Shown in pieces: positions 8,456-41,916 of a DNA stretch of 64,000 nucleotides. Origin of the DNA: Bacteroidota bacterium (GTDB lineage: Bacteria > Bacteroidota > Ignavibacteria > Kapaibacteriales > UBA2268); the NCBI GenBank assembly GCA_021780815.1, contig JAJXYC010000013.1, positions 62,001 through 126,000 on the forward strand, in the 5' to 3' direction. Under the pieces are notes generated by a model, which ran no database searches, had not been told where the DNA came from, and saw only the letters and a program-made list of their open reading frames with translations. Numbering within the stretch: position 1 is the stretch's first letter; each line of letters starts with the position of its first letter. The translations under genes and the position numbers were made by a program.

Positions 8456-10536
8456 TGTATTTCAATATTATAAGTATAAGAAAAAACATTATCAAATCAT
8501 CGCTAAGATTAGTGCAATTGTATGATAAATTAATATATACTGAATATCTTTTTATTTATATATTATCAATATTTGTAGGAATATTAACAGGGTTTGCCGA
8601 AGTTTTTTTGAAATATTTAATAAATGTTTTTTCCAAGCTATTTTTTATTGGAGAAGGCAAAACAATATTAGACAGAATCACCAATTCCCCTTGGTATATA
8701 GTTTTACTAATACCTGTTATAGGGATAATATTAAGTCAAATAATCAATTTGTTGTTTTTTAAAAAGTCCAAAACACATGGAGTATCCCATGTTATCGAAT
8801 CTATAGTTTTGAGAAATGGCTATATAAAACCTATTGCCCCATGGTTAAAAGCTTTGGCAACATCAATTACAATTGGAGCAGGAGGTTCAGTAGGTCCAGA
8901 AGGTCCAGCCGTATTTCTTGGGGCGGGTATAGCTTCAACTGTTAGTCAATTATTTAAAGCAAATTCTATGCGTACCAAAACGCTTGTAGCGGCAGGTGCA
9001 GGCGCAGGTATTGCGGCGGCTTTTAATGCACCAATTGCCGGAGCATTATTTGCAATTGAAATATTTTTAATGGATTTTAAGTTCCAACAATTTTCAGTTA
9101 TTGTAATTGCAACAGTTATGGCTACATTTGTTTCCCGCTCTCTTACTGGCGATTTGGCAGTGTTCCAGTCGTCTGTGTATCATTTAACGAGTATATTGGA
9201 ATTTATTTGGTTCGGACTACTTGGTATTTTTTCAGGTATTGTGTCGTGGCTCTTTATTGATATAATCAACAGAACAGAAGAATATTTCCATTTAAAATTA
9301 CACATACATCCAATTTATAAATCCATTGTAGGTGGTATTGTGGTCGGAACGATGGGTATATTTTTACCTTATGTATTAGGAGCAGGCTATGATACCATTG
9401 ATTTAACAATATTAAATAAGCTTTTATGGTATGTTGCTTTTATAGTTGTTATCATAAAAATATTAACTACTGCATTCACACTTTCAACAGGTGGTTCTGG
9501 TGGTGTTTTTGCTCCCGCTCTTGTTGTTGGTGCTGCTCTCGGATCTTTTTGGGGACAAATTTTTAATTTTGTGTCGCCAAGCTTAGCGCCCAAACCTGAA
9601 ATATTTGCGTTATTAGGTATGGCAGGTCTTCTGGCAGGAACTATGCATGCTCCGTTTACCGCTACTATAATGCTTTTTGAACTTACCAAAAATCAAGATT
9701 TAGTTTTACCTGCTATGCTGACTACTATTATTAGCGTTACTACTACTAAAAAATTAATTAATGAATCAATCTACACTCTTCCTTTATTGAAATATAATAT
9801 AAACTTAAAAAATAAAACTGAATTGAATATTCTTGAATCAATCTCTGTTAAAGATATTTATTCAAAAGAAATGGACATAATCCTTGAAAATGAGATTTTT
9901 CCAAATATTGTGAAAAAGATAATAAATGAAAAAGTTGCTGTTTTAGTTGTTAATAGTAATGTAGGTAATTTTTATGGATTGATTACATTAGATACAATAA
10001 AAGAAATTTTGATGGATAGCGAATCGCTTGGACAATTGTTGATTGCTGGGGATATCGCCATAAAGAATATTCCTAAAATTTATGTGGAGCAAAATCTTCG
10101 AGAAGTTTGGGAAATTATTAACCGGTTAAATTATGATGCTTTGCCTGTATTTAGTGAAAATAATCCACATAAAATTATTGGTTTAATTCACAGAAAAGAC
10201 ATTGATTCTAAATATAGTCAAGAACTTGAAAGATTTGATTTAACGTCTAATTTTGCTTCAAAAATTTCGGCTTCATTTGATAAAAAAACTGTTCCTTTAT
10301 TTGAGCAATTTGTTCTTTCAGAAATTAATGTTCCAAAAATTTTTATTGGTAAATCTATTATGGAACTTAATATTAGAAATAAATATGGAGTTGAAATAAT
10401 TTCTATTAGGTCAAATCAATTAAATAAAGAACAAATTGAAGTTATTCCTAACGGAAACTTTGTATTTCAACAAGATGATGTTTTGATAGTAGCAGGCAAG
10501 CAAGATAAAATTAATGTTCTGATGAATTTGGAATAA
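8455..10536 (+). CDS. ClC-family chloride channel/transporter with CBS pair and TrkA-C-like tail
   Basis: 693 residues, longer than the bare ClC core (about 450). Residues about 30-430 hold the ClC membrane domain: GGSVGPEGP (143-151) with the gating Glu at 149, FNAPIAGALFAIEI (190-203) and TGGSGGVFAPALVVGAALG. The position aligned with the proton Glu (E203 in E. coli ClC-ec1) is Ile, as in channel-type members. Residues about 455-600 look like two CBS motifs (VKDIYSKEM, LIHRKDID), and the end, IMELNIRNKYGVEIISIRSN then DDVLIVAGKQDKI, resembles a TrkA-C/RCK-C domain that may sense a ligand. TAATG couples it to the phosphatase gene. Chloride is the likely ion, but selectivity cannot be read from sequence alone. 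Confidence 0.9.
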   Translation: MYFNIISIRKNIIKSSLRLVQLYDKLIYTEYLFIYILSIFVGILTGFAEVFLKYLINVFSKLFFIGEGKTILDRITNSPWYIVLLIPVIGIILSQIINLLFFKKSKTHGVSHVIESIVLRNGYIKPIAPWLKALATSITIGAGGSVGPEGPAVFLGAGIASTVSQLFKANSMRTKTLVAAGAGAGIAAAFNAPIAGALFAIEIFLMDFKFQQFSVIVIATVMATFVSRSLTGDLAVFQSSVYHLTSILEFIWFGLLGIFSGIVSWLFIDIINRTEEYFHLKLHIHPIYKSIVGGIVVGTMGIFLPYVLGAGYDTIDLTILNKLLWYVAFIVVIIKILTTAFTLSTGGSGGVFAPALVVGAALGSFWGQIFNFVSPSLAPKPEIFALLGMAGLLAGTMHAPFTATIMLFELTKNQDLVLPAMLTTIISVTTTKKLINESIYTLPLLKYNINLKNKTELNILESISVKDIYSKEMDIILENEIFPNIVKKIINEKVAVLVVNSNVGNFYGLITLDTIKEILMDSESLGQLLIAGDIAIKNIPKIYVEQNLREVWEIINRLNYDALPVFSENNPHKIIGLIHRKDIDSKYSQELERFDLTSNFASKISASFDKKTVPLFEQFVLSEINVPKIFIGKSIMELNIRNKYGVEIISIRSNQLNKEQIEVIPNGNFVFQQDDVLIVAGKQDKINVLMNLE

Positions 10537-11056: not shown

Positions 11057-11141
11057 AATTAATGGAAAATAAAGATTTTTATTACTATTTTCAATTCTTT
11101 TTCGTTATAATTCTTACTTTTTAAATGGAATTTTCTTGAAG

Positions 11142-12857
11142 ATGAAAATAATTTTATCAATATGTATAATTTTTGTTTTATTTTCTAACGAACAAGTTTT
11201 TGCGAAGAAAATACAATACGATACACTGGCAAATGATGAACGTTGCTTAACTTTCCAAAAAATTCAAAAAGACAATAAAATACAAAAAAAAATTACTTTT
11301 GACCCACAAACAGGACGACCAATAAATCAAAAAGCATATAGCAGTGTTTCTGGATTATTTTTGATTCATTATGATACAAGTGGAGTAAATGCAGTTCCTA
11401 AGGAAGACAAGAACAATAACGGAATTCCTGATTTTGTAGATTCAGTTGCTTATTATGCAGACTATGTTTATAATAAAGAAGTTGTAGAATTTGGGTTTAA
11501 ATCGCCAATTGGAGATAGTTTAGTAGGCGGGAGCAATGCTTATGATATATATTTATACGATATTGGAGATGGAGATAAAGTCCCAGATAGTACTGGACAG
11601 CAAGATATGGGTGGTACTTATGGTATGACAGTTGCAGAAAAAGAAATATTGCCTGCTTTGAAGTTTCCACGTATGACTTCGTATATGATTATTGACAATA
11701 ATTATTCTCCTTTAGATTCAATTTATTATCCTGATGGAAAAGTTACACAAGCTTATAAAGTATTTGGTATAGATGGGGTAAAAATTACACTTGCACACGA
11801 ATTTCACCACGCTATTCAATATATGTATGGTATAGATGAGCCAGTAGGTTCTGAACTTGCTGAAATGTCCTCTGTTGCAATGGAAAATACTTTATTTCCT
11901 GAAATAAAAGATTATTTACAATATGTAAGAAGTTTATTTAAATACCCATCACAATATGTTTTGAGCAATGCTTCCCCTGATGATGGTTATCGTTATTCTA
12001 TTTTTATTATGATGTTAAGAGATAAATATGGAATTGAAGTTTTGAGAAATATCTGGGAATTGATTGGTAGTGGTGTGCATACATTTAAAGCACTCGATTC
12101 CGCATTAGTATTAAAGAATACTTCAATAAATAATGAATGGTTGGATTTCTTAGACTGGATTTATTTTACAAGTTATAGGACAGTTGATAATAAATATTTC
12201 AAGGATGCCGCATTGATGCCAATTTTTGCTTATGAAACAGCGTCTGAATATACTTATCCATCTATTTCATTAGGTGGATATCTCACTCCATACCAAATTC
12301 GTTGTGACCAGATATATTTTAAAAATAATTTTCCAACAAGCAACGATACTTTGAATATCGTTATTAGCTGTTTGGATTCAAGTGCTTTGTTTTATCAATT
12401 ATCTCTTAATGATGAATTCACTCAAATTGTTTGTTCTCAAAATTCAGGTAATTATACAAGAATTTTCCAAAATTCGCCTAATGAATATTATTATAATTTA
12501 CAAAATGCTTCTAACAAAGTAAAGGTAAAATTACACGAGATACCAAGTGTGGAAACTTATGCAATTGAAAAAGCATATCCTAGTCCTTTTAGAATAAATA
12601 CTGATGATGAAATCATTTTTCCAGCTCCTAAAAATGCAGGGATTAGTGAAGATGTAATATTAACTTTGTACGATTCAAATTTAAGGCAAATAATGTCTAA
12701 AACATTAAAAGTTGGATTAGAAAATAAAAATAGAGTGCTAATTCTTTCTAAACAAGATTTAATGAATACTACTCCAGTTTCAACTGGTGTTTATGTATAT
12801 CGTACCGATTATAATGGGAACGCCGTTTTAGGGAAAATTGCAATTATTAATCAATAA
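11142..12857 (+). CDS. Secreted zinc metalloprotease-like protein with T9SS sorting domain
   Basis: About 571 residues. A signal peptide covers residues 1-21. DKNNNGIPDFVDSV (about 89-102) looks like a calcium-binding loop. LAHEFHHAIQYMYG contains HEFHH (219-223), the zinc site of MXAN_6640-like putative metalloproteases, and an acidic ELAEMSS follows at about 238. The C-terminal 90 residues (AYPSPFRINTDD, then STGVYVYRTDYNG) form a type A T9SS sorting domain, so the protein is probably moved through the outer membrane by T9SS. TTG 11136 is in frame, but ATG 11142 starts the signal peptide properly. The protease family is recognised by motif only; the substrate is unknown. Confidence 0.82.
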   Translation: MKIILSICIIFVLFSNEQVFAKKIQYDTLANDERCLTFQKIQKDNKIQKKITFDPQTGRPINQKAYSSVSGLFLIHYDTSGVNAVPKEDKNNNGIPDFVDSVAYYADYVYNKEVVEFGFKSPIGDSLVGGSNAYDIYLYDIGDGDKVPDSTGQQDMGGTYGMTVAEKEILPALKFPRMTSYMIIDNNYSPLDSIYYPDGKVTQAYKVFGIDGVKITLAHEFHHAIQYMYGIDEPVGSELAEMSSVAMENTLFPEIKDYLQYVRSLFKYPSQYVLSNASPDDGYRYSIFIMMLRDKYGIEVLRNIWELIGSGVHTFKALDSALVLKNTSINNEWLDFLDWIYFTSYRTVDNKYFKDAALMPIFAYETASEYTYPSISLGGYLTPYQIRCDQIYFKNNFPTSNDTLNIVISCLDSSALFYQLSLNDEFTQIVCSQNSGNYTRIFQNSPNEYYYNLQNASNKVKVKLHEIPSVETYAIEKAYPSPFRINTDDEIIFPAPKNAGISEDVILTLYDSNLRQIMSKTLKVGLENKNRVLILSKQDLMNTTPVSTGVYVYRTDYNGNAVLGKIAIINQ

Positions 12858-16610: not shown

Positions 16611-16684
<74 letters not shown>

Positions 16685-17108: not shown

Positions 17109-20100
17109 ATGAAAACAAAACCAGAAGTAGAATGGAAAAATAAACAAATAATATTTTTATTTGCATTTTCTTTTTTGTTGCTATTGACACACGTAAAAAC
17201 TTTTGCGCAATTTGGACAAAATAAAGTACAATATGATAAATTTGACTGGATGTATATTCAATCTGAACATTTTGATATATATTACGATAAAGGTTCAAAA
17301 TATTTAGCCGAATTTTGTGCGATAGAAGCTGAAAAAGCATTAAACAGACTTCAATTTGATTTAAACTATTCAATTAATAGACGAATACCGATACTTTTAT
17401 ATAATTCGCATGTTCAGTTCCAGCAATCAAATGCAGTAAGTGAATATATGCCCGAAGGAGTAGGAGGTGTTACAGAGCTTTTCAAAAATAGAGTAGTATT
17501 GCCTTTTGATGGCAACTATGAAAGTTTTCGCCATGTAATAGCTCATGAGCTTACACATGCTGTTTTAAATGATATGTTCTATGGGGGTACTTTCCAAACG
17601 GCACTTTCTGCAAGTGGCAGTATGTTTGAAATTCCAATTTGGATGAATGAAGGATTAGCCGAATGGGAAAGTTTAAAAACTTTAACCACATTGACCGATA
17701 TGTATATACGAGATTTAGTAATAAATAATTTATTGCCTAATTTAAATCAACTTAATGGTTATTTAGCCTATCGGGGAGGACAAATATTTTACTGGTATAT
17801 TGCTGAAAATTTTGGACAAGAAAAAATTGGTGAATTAATTAATAAATTAAGTGCGTATCATAATGTAGATTTAGCATTTAAATCTACATTTAATCTTTCG
17901 CTTGAAGAATTTTCTGATAAGTGGATGAAAGATTTAAAGAAAATGTATCTTCCTGATGTGAAAACATTCCAAGACCCAGAAGATTTTGCTGAACGCTTAA
18001 CAAACCATAACAAAGAACATAATTATTGGAATTCATCACCTTCCATTTCTCCAAATGGTCAAAAATACGCTTATATTTCTGTTGATGAAGGTGTGTTTGC
18101 AATTTACACTAGAGGAATAGATAAAAAAAGTAAACCTGAAAAATTAGTTAGCAGCTTCCGCCAGCAAGATTTTGAAGAGTTGAATGTTGTTACACCAGGA
18201 ATTAGTTGGAATCCGAAAGGAGATAAATTGGCAATATCAGCTAAGGCTGGAGGTGAAAACGCAGTTTTTATAGTTGATGTTAATACAGGCGATTATGAAA
18301 AACTTTCTTGGAATTTGAAATCTATAACTTCTGTTACTTGGTCTCCTGATGAAACTAAATTGGCTTTTACTGCTACTTTGCCTTATCAAAGTGATATATT
18401 TATTTATGAATTTGCCACCAAAAAATTAACAAATTTGACTGATGATATTTATTCTGATGGTTTTCCTGAATGGAGTTCCGATAGTCAAACATTGTATTTT
18501 GTTTCTGATAGAGGTGATTATACAAGAATAGGTATGGATGCTGTAAATTTAAAAATGTGGAAGCGAAATTTTAATCGCCAAGATATTTATTCGATTGATT
18601 TGAAATCTCAAGAAATTAAGCGATTAACTTTTGACCAAAATTTCAATATTACTTCACTTGCCGCATCCTCTAATAAATCTAAATTACTTTATTCCTCTGA
18701 TAAGAATGGAATTAATAATATTTATGCTTTAGATTTAAATTCATTAAAGTCAACTCCAATTACAAATTCAATTATTGGTATTACCCAAATATCTTTGTCG
18801 CCCGATGCTTCTAAACTTCTATTTTCAGGCCAAATTGATGGTGGTTATGATATTTTTTTAATTCGCTTTCCATTTGAAAAGAAAATCAATACAGATACAT
18901 TACCTTTGACAGAATATAGACAAGGATTAGTTCAACACCAAGATTTAGTGCAAGAATTAAATAAAGAAATTCAAGGGAATATCAAAAAGAATGATTCAAC
19001 AATGAAATTACCAGATTATGGTAAATTTTCAGTTGATTTTTCACATCAAAGTTTTGTAAGTCCAAATCCAGATGCTATACAACAACAAAGTGCAGAACAG
19101 CAATCAATAGCAAAAGGTGAACAGTCGGCAGATACGAGTGAAGAATTTATAGAAAGACCTTACAAAATAAAATTTTCTACTGATATAATATTAGGAAATC
19201 CTGGATATAGTACATTTTATGGTTTTCAAGGTTTAACACAGATGCTTTTTAGTGATGTGCTTGGTGATCATCAAATTTATGCACAGGCAAACCTTTTGAC
19301 TGATTTAAGAAATAGTTCATTTCTAGTTAGTTATAGTTATTTACCTAATTTGATTGATTATAGTGCTTCAATTTACCATAGTTCTGCTTTTGTCTATGGT
19401 TCAAGTGGCTACATATATCGTTATAGGAATTACGGACTAACTCTTAATGCGTCATTACCTTTTGATTTATTTCGCAGAGTAGAAGCCAATTTAAATTGGA
19501 TGAATCTTTCTAAAGAAAATGTAGAAGTGCCACAAGAGCCATCAATTTCAAGGATGCTTGTAGTTCCTTCTATTAGATATGTCTTTGATAATACTTTATG
19601 GGGAATATTTGGTCCAGCAGTTGGTTCACGATATTATTTTGGAATTATGGGAACGCCTAAATTAGGTGGTGGTGGTGTAAGTTTTTATAACTTTGATGCT
19701 GATATCAGATATTATCAACCGATTATCAATAATTATTTGACATTGGCGATGCGAGGTGCTGTTGGTGGTAGTTTTGGAGGAAGTCCAACAAATTATTTTC
19801 TTGGTGGAACAGAAAATTGGATTAATAGCCAATTTGTTAATGGTATTATTCCTTTTGATGACCCTGTGGACTTTGGTTTTATGCAATTTGAAATGCCTTT
19901 GCGGGGCTGGGCAGTTGGTGAGGTAAAAGGACATAAATTCTTTTTGATTAATTCTGAATTGCGTTTCCCATTATTTACAGCATTAGTTGCTGGTCCAGTG
20001 CCAATACTTTTGCAAGGTATTATGGGCTCTTTCTTCTTTGATATGGGTGGTGCTTTTGATAAAGACTTTGTTGCGGCAGTTCGTTACGATGATGGAACAA

Positions 20101-20249
20101 TACATCAAAACAATTTGTTAATGTCGTCGGGCATTGGTGTTCGTGCTTATTTATTTGGGTTACCTATAAAAATGGATATTGCGTGGAGAAATGAGTATTT
20201 CAGTTGGTCTCAACCACAATATCTTTTCTCTCTTGGTTATGATTTTTAA
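17109..20249 (+). CDS. Peptidase MA-like / TolB-like propeller / outer-membrane barrel protein
   Basis: 1046 residues in three parts. A signal peptide precedes residue 35. Residues about 45-290 are a gluzincin-type zinc protease: HELTH at 146-150 and NEGLAE at 180-185 supply two His and the third ligand Glu. Residues about 300-620 hold TolB/PD40-like propeller repeats (NSSPSISPNGQKYAYIS, SWNPKGDKLAIS, TWSPDETKLAFT, EWSSDSQTLYFVSDR, SLSPDASKLLFS). Residues about 680-1046 look like a BamA/Omp85-type barrel, ending RNEYFSWSQPQYLFSLGYDF with a C-terminal Phe. It is probably an outer-membrane-anchored protease facing the periplasm. Two further genes follow at short spacing. Function is not known; the domain calls are by motif. 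Confidence 0.8.
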   Translation: MKTKPEVEWKNKQIIFLFAFSFLLLLTHVKTFAQFGQNKVQYDKFDWMYIQSEHFDIYYDKGSKYLAEFCAIEAEKALNRLQFDLNYSINRRIPILLYNSHVQFQQSNAVSEYMPEGVGGVTELFKNRVVLPFDGNYESFRHVIAHELTHAVLNDMFYGGTFQTALSASGSMFEIPIWMNEGLAEWESLKTLTTLTDMYIRDLVINNLLPNLNQLNGYLAYRGGQIFYWYIAENFGQEKIGELINKLSAYHNVDLAFKSTFNLSLEEFSDKWMKDLKKMYLPDVKTFQDPEDFAERLTNHNKEHNYWNSSPSISPNGQKYAYISVDEGVFAIYTRGIDKKSKPEKLVSSFRQQDFEELNVVTPGISWNPKGDKLAISAKAGGENAVFIVDVNTGDYEKLSWNLKSITSVTWSPDETKLAFTATLPYQSDIFIYEFATKKLTNLTDDIYSDGFPEWSSDSQTLYFVSDRGDYTRIGMDAVNLKMWKRNFNRQDIYSIDLKSQEIKRLTFDQNFNITSLAASSNKSKLLYSSDKNGINNIYALDLNSLKSTPITNSIIGITQISLSPDASKLLFSGQIDGGYDIFLIRFPFEKKINTDTLPLTEYRQGLVQHQDLVQELNKEIQGNIKKNDSTMKLPDYGKFSVDFSHQSFVSPNPDAIQQQSAEQQSIAKGEQSADTSEEFIERPYKIKFSTDIILGNPGYSTFYGFQGLTQMLFSDVLGDHQIYAQANLLTDLRNSSFLVSYSYLPNLIDYSASIYHSSAFVYGSSGYIYRYRNYGLTLNASLPFDLFRRVEANLNWMNLSKENVEVPQEPSISRMLVVPSIRYVFDNTLWGIFGPAVGSRYYFGIMGTPKLGGGGVSFYNFDADIRYYQPIINNYLTLAMRGAVGGSFGGSPTNYFLGGTENWINSQFVNGIIPFDDPVDFGFMQFEMPLRGWAVGEVKGHKFFLINSELRFPLFTALVAGPVPILLQGIMGSFFFDMGGAFDKDFVAAVRYDDGTIHQNNLLMSSGIGVRAYLFGLPIKMDIAWRNEYFSWSQPQYLFSLGYDF

Positions 20250-35950: not shown

Positions 35951-36265
35951 AACAATTCCTTTTTTTTGATTAATTTATTCTTTTATGAATTAAATTCATA
36001 AAATTGTGTAAAAATATGAATATTATCAAAGAGTATGCCATTTCTTGCAATTTCTTAAATTATGATGGGAGTAACATATATTTTAAACTAAATCATATAT
36101 TTAACGAGACTTGCTTGAAGATAATTTTAAAAAAAAATATAAGAGAAAATAATTTTTTTTAAGCAATTACGTTGAAAAGGAAAAATTACTTAATTTAGTA
36201 TTTTGTTAAAAATGGAGGTAGATAAAAGACAATTTTTCTACTTAAATTAATCAATTAGGTTGAAT
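35951..36265. other. Divergent intergenic region, porin / uppS
   Basis: 315 bases between the divergent starts. It contains the palindrome at 35981-36003 near the porin gene. The rest is AT-rich without ORFs, hairpins or clear TAnnTTTG boxes; TACTCTTTG on the minus strand near 36026-36034 is only an imperfect match. The uppS operon promoter must lie here. Confidence 0.5.
35981..36003. promoter_or_regulatory. 10-bp-arm palindrome upstream of the porin gene
   Basis: TTTTATGAAT (35981-35990), spacer TAA, ATTCATAAAA (35994-36003): perfect arms with a 3-base spacer. It is too A/T-rich and badly placed for a terminator, so a dimeric regulator site is more likely. Confidence 0.5.
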
Positions 36266-37081
36266 ATGTGGATTGATGAATTAACTCCCGAAGATAGTTC
36301 AAATCAAGAAATAATAAAAGCAAAAGGAAGATTACCTGTTCATATTGGTATTATAATGGACGGAAATGGTAGATGGGCAGAAAGCAAAAATTTAAACAGA
36401 TTAGAAGGTCATAGGATGGGAATTGAGAGTGTCCGAGATATAGTCAAGGCAAGTTCCCAAATTGGAGTGAAATATTTAACACTTTATTCATTTTCAATAG
36501 AAAATTGGAATCGTCCTATTGATGAGGTTAATGGTTTAATGTTTCTTTTGGAATATTACTTAAGACAAGAAATTACAGAATTACATAAAAACAATGTAAG
36601 AATTAAAACAATAGGTAAAACCAATTCACTTCCCAATTCAATACAAACTTTACTTTTTAATGCAATAGAGAAAACACATAGAAATACAGGATTGACAATG
36701 ACATTAGCATTAAGTTATAGTGGTCGTTGGGATATTCTGCAAGCAATACAACTTCTTACTCTTGATGTTAGGAGTGGAAAATTATCTCCCGAAGATGTAA
36801 ATGAAAAACTTTTTTCATCTTACCTTTCAACAAAAGATTTACCAGATGTAGATATGTTGATAAGAACTTCTGGTGAATTAAGATTAAGCAATTTTATGTT
36901 GTGGGAGATGGCTTATGGTGAGATATTTATTACCGAAAAATACTGGCCTGATTTTCGGAGAGATGATTTATATTTAGCTATTGAAAATTATATTAATCGT
37001 GAAAGAAGATTCGGTCGAACTTCTAAACAAGTTAAAAATGACAATGTATTTCCCAATATGGCAATTACAGGAAAACAATGA
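36266..37081 (+). CDS. uppS: Undecaprenyl diphosphate synthase (isoprenyl transferase)
   Basis: 271 residues. HIGIIMDGNGRWAES (catalytic Asp in MDGNGRW), EGHRMGIESVRDIV, YSFSIENWNRP and DMLIRTSGELRLSNFMLWEMAYGEIFI are the conserved cis-prenyltransferase blocks. It extends farnesyl diphosphate with IPP to C55-PP, the carrier for peptidoglycan and surface glycans, using the IPP made by the mevalonate cluster in the same window. ATG 36266 is favoured by AGG seven bases upstream; TTG 36260 is in frame. It overlaps bamA by four bases. The usual cdsA/dxr genes of many uppS operons are absent, which suits a mevalonate-using organism. Confidence 0.96.
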   Translation: MWIDELTPEDSSNQEIIKAKGRLPVHIGIIMDGNGRWAESKNLNRLEGHRMGIESVRDIVKASSQIGVKYLTLYSFSIENWNRPIDEVNGLMFLLEYYLRQEITELHKNNVRIKTIGKTNSLPNSIQTLLFNAIEKTHRNTGLTMTLALSYSGRWDILQAIQLLTLDVRSGKLSPEDVNEKLFSSYLSTKDLPDVDMLIRTSGELRLSNFMLWEMAYGEIFITEKYWPDFRRDDLYLAIENYINRERRFGRTSKQVKNDNVFPNMAITGKQ

Positions 37082-39441
37082 TGAAATTTAGGTTAAGTCT
37101 ATTTTTTTTATTTTTATATGGATTTTACTCTTTTGGATTTGCTCAACAAACTAATGAGCAAGCAAAACCTATAATTATTGCAGGGATTAGTGTGGAAGGC
37201 AATGAGTTCGTTTCCTCCGAAACTATTATTTCGCTTTCTGGTCTGAGAGTAGGCGATGTAATTACTTCTGTCAATGAAACGAAAATCCAAAGTGCTTTGC
37301 TTAATTTATGGAAAAGAAAACAATTTCATAAAATTGACATTGTGATTGATAAAATTACAGAAGCAGGGGTTTTTCTTTTAATTAAAGTTGAAGAATTTCC
37401 ACGTTTAAATGAAATTGTTATCAAAGATAATGATGAAGTTAGCACAAAAGATATTTTAAAAGAAATCGGCAAAAGTAAAGGGCAAATACTTACTAATTAC
37501 GATACACTTTTAATTAAACAAAAAGTAAAAGATTTATATACAAAAGAAGGCTTACTGTTTGCGAAAATTGAACCAGATATTAGATTTACCGATGTAAAAA
37601 ATTATGCAGATTTATATTTATTTATAAATGAAGGTACTCATTTTAAAACAAATTCCATTACTATTGTTGGAAATAAGAAAATTGATGCTGACGACTTGAT
37701 AGGCTCATTTGAAGATACAAAAGTAAAAAAATGGTGGGAATTTTGGAAATCGGGCAAATTTGATGATAAAAAATATCAAGATGATAAGAAGCTACTCGTT
37801 GATTATTATAAGAATCATGGATTTGTCGATGCTGAAATTCTTAAAGATACAGTTGTTTATAATGAACAAAATGGGAAAGTAGATATTACAATAAATGTAA
37901 ACGAAGGTAATCAATATTATATCAGAAATATTACTTTTGATGGTAATACAGTTTATCCAAGTGAAGTATTATTAAGAAGGCTGGATTTGAAGAAAGGTGA
38001 TGTATTAGACGAAGGGAAGCTAAAAAAGAATTTAGAAGCTAATCAAGACCAAACTGACGCTGCATCGCTTTATTTAGACAACGGATATTTACAAGCTCGT
38101 TTAATTTCAAATGAAAATAAAATTGGAACAGACTCCGTTGATTTGTCAATAATGGTTTATGAAGGTATCCGATATAAAATTGGGAAAGTCGATATAGTAG
38201 GAAATACAAAAACTAAGGATAAAGTTATTCGTAGAGAATTATTTACCCGCCCAGGTGAATATTTTGACCGTTCAGCAATAATTCGTAGTGTTCGTGCGTT
38301 AGGTGTTATGAACTATTTTAATCCTGAAAAATTGAAACCAGATGTTCAACCATCAGCAATAGATAATACTAGTGTTGATATAATTTACAATGTTGAGGAA
38401 CGCTCGACAGATACATTTAATGCTTCTGTTGGATTTGCTGGTACTTTTGGTTTGACAGGTTCAATAGGATTTTCTTTTAATAATTTCTCATTATTAGAAC
38501 CATTGACTGGTGGTTCAGGTCAAGTTTTTGCTTTTAATTGGGAATTCGGTCAATTTTCTCAATATCAAACTTTTTCATTAAGTTTTACTGAACCTTGGCT
38601 CAATGATAAGCCTACAACAATAGGATTTAATTTATTTGATACTCGTTATTCGTATTATTTTAATATGCGTAGGTCTGGGGCAACAATAAATTTAGGTCGT
38701 CGCTTTAAATGGCCTGATGATTATTGGCGTGGTGATTGGAGTTTTAGTTCAATGTATAATAGTATTGTTGCTGGGGATTCTACTTCTCTTTTTATTCCAG
38801 GTTCTGAATTTACAATTTCCCAAAAATATTCAAGAATTAGTGTAAATAATCAATTTTTCCCTACCGTAGGTTCAAGATTTTCATTAAGTAATGATTTTGC
38901 ATTAGGTGCTCTTGGAATTGGAACAACAGATTACCTGAAAACGGAATTTAGCTACGATGCTTTTAATACACTTTGGACAATTGATGGGCAAGATAGGTTA
39001 GTTTTTATGATTAGCACAAAGTGGGGTTATTTAGCAAGTTTTAAATCTGATTCCACTATTCCACCAATAGAAAGATATTATATGGGTGGAAATGGATTGA
39101 GCGGTTGGGGAGTTACTCCTTTGCGAGGTTATCAAGATAGGACCATCGGTAATACTAATGGAAGTTATGTCCTTGCGAGATATATCGCAGAATTACGATT
39201 TGCTATTTCATTAGACCCTATGCCAATTTATGTTTATGCTTTTGGTGATGCGGGAAATGTATGGGATTCTTTTGCTAAAACTGACCCGTTTGATTTAAAA
39301 CGTTCGGCGGGAGTTGGGATACATTTATTAATTAATCCAATTGGTATGGTTGGATTTAGCTATGGTTATGGATTTGATCCTGTTACTGGCGGTAACTCTC
39401 CTTCTGGTTGGCAATTTTTATTCCACTTAGGGCAACAGTAA
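37078..39441 (+). CDS. bamA: Outer-membrane assembly factor BamA
   Basis: 787 residues. Signal peptide about 1-22, then about five POTRA repeats (starting IIIAGISVEGNEFVSSETI, and including FKTNSITIVGNKKIDADDL, YYIRNITFDGNTVYPSEVL and YKIGKVDIVGNTKTKDKVI), then an Omp85 barrel from about residue 440. The barrel lid motif appears as LRGYQDRTIG. BamA is the core of the machine that folds outer-membrane barrels. Overlap ATGA with uppS and the Skp-like genes downstream form an envelope operon. The C-terminus (GWQFLFHLGQQ) lacks the usual final Phe, a small oddity. Confidence 0.96.
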   Translation: MMKFRLSLFFLFLYGFYSFGFAQQTNEQAKPIIIAGISVEGNEFVSSETIISLSGLRVGDVITSVNETKIQSALLNLWKRKQFHKIDIVIDKITEAGVFLLIKVEEFPRLNEIVIKDNDEVSTKDILKEIGKSKGQILTNYDTLLIKQKVKDLYTKEGLLFAKIEPDIRFTDVKNYADLYLFINEGTHFKTNSITIVGNKKIDADDLIGSFEDTKVKKWWEFWKSGKFDDKKYQDDKKLLVDYYKNHGFVDAEILKDTVVYNEQNGKVDITINVNEGNQYYIRNITFDGNTVYPSEVLLRRLDLKKGDVLDEGKLKKNLEANQDQTDAASLYLDNGYLQARLISNENKIGTDSVDLSIMVYEGIRYKIGKVDIVGNTKTKDKVIRRELFTRPGEYFDRSAIIRSVRALGVMNYFNPEKLKPDVQPSAIDNTSVDIIYNVEERSTDTFNASVGFAGTFGLTGSIGFSFNNFSLLEPLTGGSGQVFAFNWEFGQFSQYQTFSLSFTEPWLNDKPTTIGFNLFDTRYSYYFNMRRSGATINLGRRFKWPDDYWRGDWSFSSMYNSIVAGDSTSLFIPGSEFTISQKYSRISVNNQFFPTVGSRFSLSNDFALGALGIGTTDYLKTEFSYDAFNTLWTIDGQDRLVFMISTKWGYLASFKSDSTIPPIERYYMGGNGLSGWGVTPLRGYQDRTIGNTNGSYVLARYIAELRFAISLDPMPIYVYAFGDAGNVWDSFAKTDPFDLKRSAGVGIHLLINPIGMVGFSYGYGFDPVTGGNSPSGWQFLFHLGQQ

Positions 39442-39484
39442 TTAAAAAAGTTTATAATTATTTTATTATTAAATATTTATGTTG

Positions 39485-39492
39485 TAATTTTG
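39485..39492 (+). promoter_or_regulatory. TAnnTTTG box before the first Skp-like gene
   Basis: TAATTTTG at 39485-39492, 22 bases before ATG 39515, matches the Bacteroidota -7 consensus. No TTTG is found about 19 bases upstream, so it is only a candidate for a secondary promoter between bamA and the chaperone genes. Confidence 0.35.
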
Positions 39493-39514
39493 AAAATTGA
39501 AAAAAAGGAAATTT

Positions 39515-40069
39515 ATGAAAAACTCACTTTTAGGAACCTTTGTTTTGCTTGTAATTGTTGCAAGTTTTAGCTTTTCAAAAACTTTCGCAGAAGGGAAAAG
39601 TTCTGCTCAAAATGTAAAAATTGGTGTTGTTGATGTTGAAGTAATGTTAAAAGACATGCCAGAAGCAATTAATGCTGATAAAAAATTAAAAGATTTGGGT
39701 ACAAAATGGCAAGATACCTTAATTAATATGAAAAAAGATTTTGATGATAGAATTCAAAAATATCAAAAGCAAAAATCATTGATGACTGCTGACCAACAAT
39801 CTAAAGAAGAAGAAACACTTCAAAATATACAAACTCAATTGATGCAATATCAAGACCAAAAGTTTGGTCAAAATGGTGAACTTAATCAAACACGTGAAAA
39901 GTTTTTAGACCCAATTCGTGAAAAAATTAAAACTGCAATTCAAAAAGTAGCCAAAGAAGAAGGAATTACCTTAGTCCTTGACAAAACAAACTCAGCTGTT
40001 TTATATTTTGATGATAAAATGGATTTGACATACAAAGTTCTTGATATTATAAAACGAGGCAATAATTGA
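39515..40069 (+). CDS. OmpH/Skp-family periplasmic chaperone (first copy)
   Basis: 184 residues. Signal peptide to about residue 26, then KIGVVDVEVMLKDMPEA, a long charged coiled-coil arm (about 60-125) and a C-terminal FLDPIREKIKTAIQKVAKEEGITLVLDK, the Skp layout: a trimer that carries unfolded outer-membrane proteins to BamA. ATG 39515 is chosen because AAAAAGGAA lies just upstream; TTG 39497 would add a charged lead before the signal. A second copy follows. bamA-skp-skp-lpxD order is common in Bacteroidota. Confidence 0.9.
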   Translation: MKNSLLGTFVLLVIVASFSFSKTFAEGKSSAQNVKIGVVDVEVMLKDMPEAINADKKLKDLGTKWQDTLINMKKDFDDRIQKYQKQKSLMTADQQSKEEETLQNIQTQLMQYQDQKFGQNGELNQTREKFLDPIREKIKTAIQKVAKEEGITLVLDKTNSAVLYFDDKMDLTYKVLDIIKRGNN

Positions 40070-40113
40070 TTTTTTATACAGATTTTTAATCTGTAAAACT
40101 CAAACGAATAAGT

Positions 40114-40830
40114 ATGAAAAAAATATTTTTAGTGGTATTAATTGTAACCACAATAACGCCATTTATTTTAAATGCACAAAGAGTTGCATTTATTAACTCA
40201 CAAACAATTCGTTCAAAGCTTCCTGATGCACAGCAAGCAGACCAGCGAATCCGTTCTTTTGTTGATGAGTGGAAACGTGAATTGAGTGTTATTCAAAAAA
40301 ATATTGAAAATCTTGAATTTGAGATTAATAAAAATCGATTAATCTGGACTGAAGAAGAAAAGGCGCAAAAAGAAAAGGAATTGAAAGATTTGAAAGAACG
40401 AAGCGAAGGTTATGCTCGTGCTAAGTTCTCTCCAAACGGTGAATATGATGCTGTGGTTAAGCAAATTATGACCCCAATTGATCAAAAAATCTCTGCCGCT
40501 ATCCAAAAAGTTGCAAATAGTCATCATTTTGATATTGTGTTTGACCAAAGTGTTCAACCGCTTGCTTATGTCAATTTTAAATATGATTTGACGATTGCAG
40601 TTCTACAAGAGTTAGGTGTTGATGTGGATGAATTACAAAAACAATTAGAAGAAAAAATTGCTAAGGACCCAGCTAACCAAAGAAAAGAATCTACACAACC
40701 GAAAAGAGTTTCTCGTACTGGAACTGTATCGCCTGATCAAAGGCAATTTGAAAATAATCAGCAACAAAGTCCTGATACTACTAAACCAAATCAATCAATT
40801 CCTCCAAAAGAAGTATTTCCAAAAAAATAA
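40114..40830 (+). CDS. OmpH/Skp-family periplasmic chaperone (second copy, disordered tail)
   Basis: 238 residues. Signal peptide to about 21 (NAQ end), then RVAFINSQTIRSKLPDAQQADQRI, a coiled-coil arm with EEEKAQKEKELKDLKERSEGYARAKF and QIMTPIDQKISAAIQKVANSHHFDIVFDQ, matching the first copy. After about residue 180 it has a Lys/Gln/Pro-rich tail ending PPKEVFPKK, absent from the first copy and probably disordered. Likely a paralogue with a distinct client or partner. It lies 44 bases after the first copy and 54 before lpxD. Confidence 0.88.
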   Translation: MKKIFLVVLIVTTITPFILNAQRVAFINSQTIRSKLPDAQQADQRIRSFVDEWKRELSVIQKNIENLEFEINKNRLIWTEEEKAQKEKELKDLKERSEGYARAKFSPNGEYDAVVKQIMTPIDQKISAAIQKVANSHHFDIVFDQSVQPLAYVNFKYDLTIAVLQELGVDVDELQKQLEEKIAKDPANQRKESTQPKRVSRTGTVSPDQRQFENNQQQSPDTTKPNQSIPPKEVFPKK

Positions 40831-40884
40831 TTGGTTCTTCTTTTGTGGATATGTGTATATTTTTATAATATAAAATAATATTGT

Positions 40885-41916
40885 ATGTTGAACTTTACTT
40901 TAAACGAACTTTGTGCTATACTTGGCACAACTGAATATGTAGGTTACACTGATGTGCGACTTACTAATTTAAATAGAATTGAACATTCTTCAACTGGGGA
41001 TATAACTTTTTTTTCCAACAATAAGTATTTAAAATACCTTAAAACTACTTATGCAAGTTGTGTATTAATTGAAAAAAATAATAATACTCAACCAAAAGAT
41101 AATCAAGTTTTCATTAAAGTTGATAACCCGTATGTTTCTTTTGTTCAATTAATTTTTTTAGCAAACGAACCTGAACAAAATACATTTGAAATTCATCCAT
41201 CAACAGTGATTGAACAAGGGGCTTTTGTGTCTGCAAAAGCAAGTATAGGAGCGAATTGTTACATAGGGAAAAATGTTAGTATTGATGAAGGGGTAATAAT
41301 TAAATCCAATTGTTCAATTCAGCAGAATGTAAAAATTGGTAAAAATACTTTAATACATTCTAATGTAGTAATTTACAAAGATTGCGAAATTGGTGATAAT
41401 TGTATTATACATTCAGGTGTAGTGATTGGGGCAGATGGATTTGGATATATAGAAAATTCAGATGGCTCATACTCTAAAATACCGCAAATTGGCAATGTTG
41501 TTATAGGGAACAACGTAGAAATTGGAGCGAATACAACAGTAGACCGTTCATTAATTGGCTCTACTTATATCAGAGATGGAGTGAAATTAGATAATTTAAT
41601 ACAAATTGCTCACAATGTAGAAGTTGGAGAAAACTCAGCAATGGCAGCGCAAGTTGGCGTTTCTGGCAGTGCAAAAATTGGAAAAAGAAACCGTCTCGGG
41701 GGACAAGTTGGAATTGCCGGACATCTTGAAATTGCCGATGATGTTATTATTATGGCACAGTCTGGTGTTGCAAAATCTGTTACCGAAAAAGGTATATATT
41801 TTGGTTCTCCAATTAAAGATAGAATAACTGCTTTTAAGATAGAAGCAGTTATTCCACAACTTCCTCAAATTTATAAAGATATTAATTTAATCAAGAAAAA
41901 ATTAGATATTAAATAA
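40885..41916 (+). CDS. lpxD: UDP-3-O-acylglucosamine N-acyltransferase LpxD
   Basis: 343 residues. An N-terminal uridine-binding domain (about 1-100, LTNLNRIEHSSTGDITFFSNNKYL) precedes a left-handed parallel beta helix of hexapeptide repeats. GADGFGYI and NLIQIAHNVEVGENSAMAAQVGVSGSAKIG contain the catalytic His. LpxD adds the second acyl chain, from acyl-ACP, in lipid A synthesis at the cytoplasmic side. Completes the envelope cluster with uppS, bamA and the Skp copies. lpxA/lpxC are not in the window. Confidence 0.96.
   Translation: MLNFTLNELCAILGTTEYVGYTDVRLTNLNRIEHSSTGDITFFSNNKYLKYLKTTYASCVLIEKNNNTQPKDNQVFIKVDNPYVSFVQLIFLANEPEQNTFEIHPSTVIEQGAFVSAKASIGANCYIGKNVSIDEGVIIKSNCSIQQNVKIGKNTLIHSNVVIYKDCEIGDNCIIHSGVVIGADGFGYIENSDGSYSKIPQIGNVVIGNNVEIGANTTVDRSLIGSTYIRDGVKLDNLIQIAHNVEVGENSAMAAQVGVSGSAKIGKRNRLGGQVGIAGHLEIADDVIIMAQSGVAKSVTEKGIYFGSPIKDRITAFKIEAVIPQLPQIYKDINLIKKKLDIK

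Follow-up and report, generated by a model that had tools for sequence, protein, structure and literature searches.

A WD40-Omp85 family of the Bacteroidota with a predicted peptidase domain, inactivated more than once, and a recurrent tamB-rnr neighborhood

Introduction

What is the role of a protein that joins a metallopeptidase-like motif, a beta-propeller and an outer membrane barrel in a single chain? The question is raised by an open reading frame (ORF) at positions 17109 to 20249 (+) of the window, by which we mean the whole 64,000-nucleotide stretch of Bacteroidota DNA that was analyzed. The ORF starts with ATG and encodes 1046 amino acids. A preliminary description had proposed an outer membrane-anchored protease with possible outer membrane or T9SS clients. 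Propeller-Omp85 proteins are an already known class, catalogued in 2014 as "WD40-Omp85", one of ten Omp85 subfamilies and uncharacterized (Heinz and Lithgow, PMC4104836), and the class is still termed so (PMC11116518). The window protein corresponds to it by description, with a TolB-like WD40/PD40 propeller directly before the Omp85 barrel and no POTRA domain, but it also has an N-terminal peptidase, of which the text of PMC4104836 makes no mention for this class. What the present analysis adds is that the peptidase belongs to the standard make-up of the family, that it was inactivated repeatedly and that the gene shares an operon with tamB and rnr in many relatives.

Results

Pfam profiles and full-length relatives divide the ORF into a signal peptide, a Peptidase_MA_2 domain, a TolB/PD40 propeller, a linker and an Omp85 barrel. 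The profile scores of the predicted peptidase, propeller and barrel are far above chance. Reading of the translation indicated a signal peptide over residues 1 to 33 (17109 to 17207, +), with a hydrophobic core and the end KTFA-Q but without a lipobox Cys. Cleavage would occur after residue 33, and the mature part of the relatives likewise begins at (A)Q-FGKNKVQY. The linker, residues 591 to 680 (18879 to 19148, +), is weakly conserved, with a mean top-residue frequency of 0.37 over residues 601 to 690 against 0.54 to 0.65 in the domains.

A survey of this architecture, as called for earlier, was run within the phylum and gave matches in 358 of 395 genomes (337 of the 371 good ones). Many were full length, with 30 to 67% identity and the same three-part domain order; weaker matches in some families (e.g., f26 and f30) span the propeller only. 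This near-universal distribution across the phylum sample makes a housekeeping role likely. We aligned 55 full-length relatives, window protein included, and then 30 from other families, giving 85 proteins. Nearly invariant are FGKNKVQY..W after the signal peptide, HExxH, EG..E and positions in the propeller and barrel, with R932-G933 among the latter. Of the named records, the two nearest are metagenome genomes that bear the label Chloroherpeton thalassium. A search of viral contigs for further relatives found none, and no link to the family was established from the C. tepidum OMV core proteome table (PMC12285230). Extra partial matches in three genomes (G003, G013 and G030) suggest that the architecture occurs as two or three paralogues per genome in some families. 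In one relative (L004, near 9051 to 9230), the final strand of the barrel is apparently frameshifted, likely by a metagenome assembly error. In the window's own genome, a second match on contig C18 was considered as a paralogue and turned out to be a tricorn-like protease (PD40, PDZ and S41).

The barrel covers residues 681 to 1046 (19149 to 20246, +) and ends in SLGYDF, with a terminal aromatic residue. When these residues were scanned alone, PF01103 (Omp85) matched at 41.6 bits (E = 1.4e-10; cut-off, 24) over 281 residues and profile positions 53 to 325 of 325; the full-length hmmscan had missed the domain, and a separate genome search with PF01103 likewise recovers the protein. Eighteen of 32 homologous barrels match PF01103 and none matches another family, and a profile built from the 32 matches Omp85 structures (9ccg, E = 5e-11; BamA, E = 5e-4). 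Arg932 and Gly933, in the motif PLRGW (19902 to 19907, +), are conserved in 55 of 55 proteins; from its pattern and position, we take this motif to be the counterpart of the Omp85 (V/I)RG(F/Y) loop-6 motif. No POTRA domain (PF07244) was matched before the barrel, this region being made up of the peptidase and the propeller. AlphaFold2 models from a three-sequence alignment were usable only for the propeller in the case of the whole protein (pLDDT 37) and uninformative on a 16-stranded fold in that of the barrel alone (pLDDT 29). Amphipathic strands number 20, versus 13.8 +/- 2.4 in shuffled sequences, but the peptidase region scores as well, and this count does not tell the two regions apart. 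On the family profiles, we assign the C-terminal domain to the Omp85 barrels, in line with the BamA-like barrel with terminal Phe and the outer membrane anchoring that had been proposed. The PF01103 search identified four Omp85 proteins in the window's genome, this one included. Sequence reading named the others as BamA (window positions 37078 to 39441), a POTRA-type protein on contig C18 and a patatin-Omp85 on contig C16. The latter (G000; L076 and L112) is PlpD-like, and two enzyme-Omp85 fusions thus coexist in this genome.

The propeller extends over about residues 300 to 590 (18006 to 18878, +) and comprises about six blades. It is matched by PF07676 (PD40, 58 bits), PF00930 (DPPIV_N, 41 bits) and TIGR02800 (TolB), the latter at 104 bits, under the model's full-length cut-off of 343 bits. 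PDB TolB chains were matched by sequence, and TolB was the best Foldseek match of the one confidently modelled part (E of about 1e-15), so that the TolB/PD40-like repeats noted earlier are borne out by structure prediction. The propeller also resembles those of S9 peptidases.

The predicted Peptidase MA (gluzincin-type) domain occupies residues 35 to 292 (17211 to 17984, +) and includes the invariant N-terminal FGKNKVQY..W. Its profile, PF13485 (Peptidase_MA_2), matches about residues 74 to 276 with 44 bits (cut-off, 32.4), as well as 32 of 32 relatives. HELTH, at residues 146 to 150 (17544 to 17558, +), is the predicted zinc-binding and catalytic motif, and NEGLAE, at residues 180 to 185 (17646 to 17663, +), provides the presumed third zinc ligand, E181. 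Both motifs had been pointed out in the preliminary description. HExxH is found in 54 of 55 proteins of the first alignment set and in 70 of 85 overall; E181, G182 and E185 are present in all 55. The domain profile, HExxH and the downstream Glu ligand that define the Peptidase MA clan were thus all found, and this domain is the best-conserved part of the protein (mean top-residue frequency, 0.65). As HExxH and the third-ligand Glu are intact, proteolytic activity of the window protein is plausible. PF00149 is a calcineurin-type phosphoesterase domain. It defines the "metalloprotease" Omp85 class of PMC4104836 and is different from PF13485.

The remaining 15 of the 85 full-length proteins have no HExxH anywhere. 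They nevertheless retain homology to the peptidase domain (123 to 256 bits) and to the barrel (143 to 252 bits), as well as the terminal Phe. These proteins form two groups. One has twelve members in five families that lie outside the class of the window and by kinship would be Bacteroidia; the other has three members, all of family f5, which belongs to the window's own order. In the Bacteroidia clade, the NEGLAE motif is mostly gone together with HExxH. We built a tree from propeller and barrel columns only, leaving out the peptidase columns, by a fast method that calls for caution with long branches. The HExxH label required two parsimony changes on it, versus a mean of 14 after shuffling. 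Since homology to the domain is retained and f5 is nested among intact proteins, the direction of change would be loss rather than gain, and the peptidase center appears to have disappeared on at least two occasions. In the three f5 proteins (L051, L083 and L084), RELTR or RELAL replaces HExxH, an inactivation separate from that of the larger clade.

These losses bear on the idea of a dedicated outer membrane-anchored periplasmic protease, in which proteolysis would be the main activity, the propeller would gate or select substrates in the manner of tricorn or prolyl oligopeptidase-type enzymes, and the barrel would be a mere anchor. The strong conservation of the peptidase, the 70 relatives with HExxH and the Glu ligand intact and the likeness of the propeller to S9 peptidases as well as to TolB agree with it. 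However, two clades have lost the active site and retained everything else, and a barrel that served as a mere anchor would not be expected to have invariant residues such as those of the Omp85 RG motif. We consider this explanation rather unlikely. The proposal of a protease thus stands as far as a plausible activity is concerned but not as the whole function. Because two clades without an active site retain all three domains, the shared function would be independent of catalysis, which on this evidence is not the common core function of the family, even though the center of the window protein is intact.

A role as an accessory factor of the T9SS, processing or chaperoning its components or cargo at the outer membrane, was evaluated by the distribution of sprA. 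All 80 genomes with a full-length gene (61 + 19) have sprA, and the tested T9SS-less lineages, f26 and f48, do not have the gene. Chlorobiaceae genomes are reported to be devoid of SprA as well (PMC12611786). The window also holds, upstream of the gene, a 573-residue protein (11136 to 12857, +) with a DUF6055 match, the motif HEFHH and, by reading, a T9SS-type C-terminal domain; it is a second putative metallopeptidase near the gene, and the T9SS probably exports it. Nevertheless, sprA also occurs in 15 of the 26 genomes that lack the gene, and it is absent from the recurrent neighbors at 43 loci. As sprA and the gene both track lineage, their co-occurrence is a weak link, compatible with a T9SS role but no proof of it. 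The suggestion of T9SS clients is therefore weakly backed, and we regard this role as improbable. In family f45 (L130, L132 and L137), a gene for a protein of about 2450 residues, with SD-repeat adhesin-like matches in the case of L130, lies directly behind the pseudo-peptidase copies. This neighbor (2444 to 2485 residues) was considered as SprA and rejected, as the family search gave adhesin-like matches and the PF14349 sprA match of those genomes lies elsewhere.

At the same 43 loci, the two commonest neighbors were a protein of about 1500 residues and RNase R (rnr, identified by Pfam), found at 12 loci each. The former is TamB: it is homologous to the PF04357 protein of the own genome, and PF04357 matches at the same places elsewhere. 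The order tamB-rnr-gene, on one strand, was found at 11 loci, with 4 to 152 bp between rnr and the gene. Of 60 genomes, 17, which belong to eight families, encode TamB a short way upstream of the gene, and two more encode it a few kilobases off. A simple proportion would predict about 0.2 by chance, but related genomes are non-independent events. No tamB linkage was seen among the loci examined in Bacteroidia relatives. In four loci (L123, L124, L125 and L128), the tamB-rnr pair is present without the peptidase-propeller-Omp85 gene.

The genome of the window carries tamB on contig C5 and the gene on contig C7. For the window protein, the link to TamB would thus come from its relatives, because its tamB lies on another contig. 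The TamB of this genome clusters with a clade that includes TamBs linked to the gene (support, 0.94) and not with the group of the TamL-linked L115. In genomes with two TamBs, the second adjoins a POTRA-Omp85 gene of the TamL type (L115 and L116). Published surveys report TamB operons with BamA, TamA or TamL (PMC4494059, PMC12045153), and no mention of the tamB-rnr-gene arrangement was found in the searchable literature (PMC4494059, PMC12045153). F. johnsoniae has its essential tamB at a site separate from tamL (PMC12045153).

Other neighbors were less informative. An FAD oxidoreductase and cytidylate kinase upstream and YicC downstream of the gene in Bacteroidia gave no functional lead, and a glycosyltransferase and Hsp33 downstream recur only in two 67%-identical records. 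In the window, a tRNA-Gly (gcc) gene (16611 to 16684, -) lies just upstream of the gene. A cluster for outer membrane biogenesis, named by reading as uppS-bamA-ompH/skp-like (two copies)-lpxD-like, is found about 16 kb downstream (36260 to 41916, +).

Discussion

The window protein shares features with several known systems. Like BamA, TamA and TamL, it has an Omp85 barrel with the RG loop motif and a terminal aromatic residue, but a propeller and a peptidase take the place of their POTRA domains. TamL-type proteins are encoded in operons with tamB, as are relatives of the window protein, except that rnr then lies between tamB and the gene; furthermore, TamL is a lipoprotein, whereas the window protein has no lipobox. 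TolB is the closest solved structure for the propeller, but its N-terminal domain was not found here, and the propeller is covalently joined to the peptidase and barrel. BepA, an M48 protease at BAM, is also a zinc peptidase beside an Omp85 machine and may be a functional analogue, by analogy only, as it is a separate protein of another peptidase family without a barrel fusion. PlpD, a patatin-Omp85, likewise has an enzyme domain fused N-terminally to the barrel, and this domain was shown to be periplasmic (PMC11116518); it differs by its enzyme class, its single POTRA domain and the absence of a propeller.

The explanation that we favor, at about even chances, is an outer membrane biogenesis factor with a periplasmic peptidase and propeller, plausibly working with TamB. 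After Sec export and cleavage of the signal peptide, the C-terminal barrel would insert into the outer membrane. As suggested by the Omp85 fold and by PlpD, the TolB-like propeller and the Peptidase-MA domain would remain in the periplasm, in the place that the POTRA domains of BamA and TamA take up. The core function would probably be in outer membrane biogenesis, with the propeller docking a client or partner and the barrel helping assembly; TamB, an inner membrane-anchored bridge protein, would be a plausible partner. In the window's lineage, the intact peptidase would most likely clip or remove misassembled periplasmic or outer membrane clients beside the barrel, an activity that two other clades would have lost while keeping the remainder.

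Besides the separate contigs of tamB and the gene in the window's genome, the Bacteroidia relatives without tamB linkage and the tamB-rnr pairs that stand without the gene, several points argue against a partnership with TamB. The rnr gene of the operon codes for a cytoplasmic RNase, and neighborhood need not mean shared function. If the tamB arrangement is vertically inherited, it represents few independent events. In addition, TamA presumably reaches TamB by way of its POTRA domains, which the window protein does not have. A bolder version, which we hold to be possible but doubtful, is that of an alternative translocation and assembly module of Bacteroidota/Chlorobi, in which a POTRA-less propeller-Omp85 with a quality control peptidase, non-catalytic in some lineages, would be the outer membrane partner of TamB.

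Two further explanations fare worse. In a Tol-Pal-like tether, the TolB-type propeller would bind Pal or peptidoglycan-associated proteins and link the outer membrane to the cell wall. The propeller is indeed nearest to TolB by sequence and Foldseek, a likeness also noted for WD40-Omp85 proteins by Heinz and Lithgow (PMC4104836). Such a tether is quite improbable, as the likeness to TolB is limited to the propeller and the peptidase and conserved Omp85 barrel motif would be left unexplained. TpsB-type Omp85 proteins have a general export capacity, which would speak for a barrel that carries the peptidase or propeller to the cell surface. This export fusion, as once proposed for PlpD, is the least credible, since the enzyme domain of PlpD proved to be periplasmic (PMC11116518) and the N-terminal part here is of about 600 residues and includes a propeller.

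A peptidase domain that has lost its active site more than once and a recurrent operon with tamB and rnr provide testable handles on an Omp85 subfamily without a known function. They also bear on which Omp85 protein serves which TamB in the phylum, a question raised by the separation of tamB and tamL in F. johnsoniae (PMC12045153).
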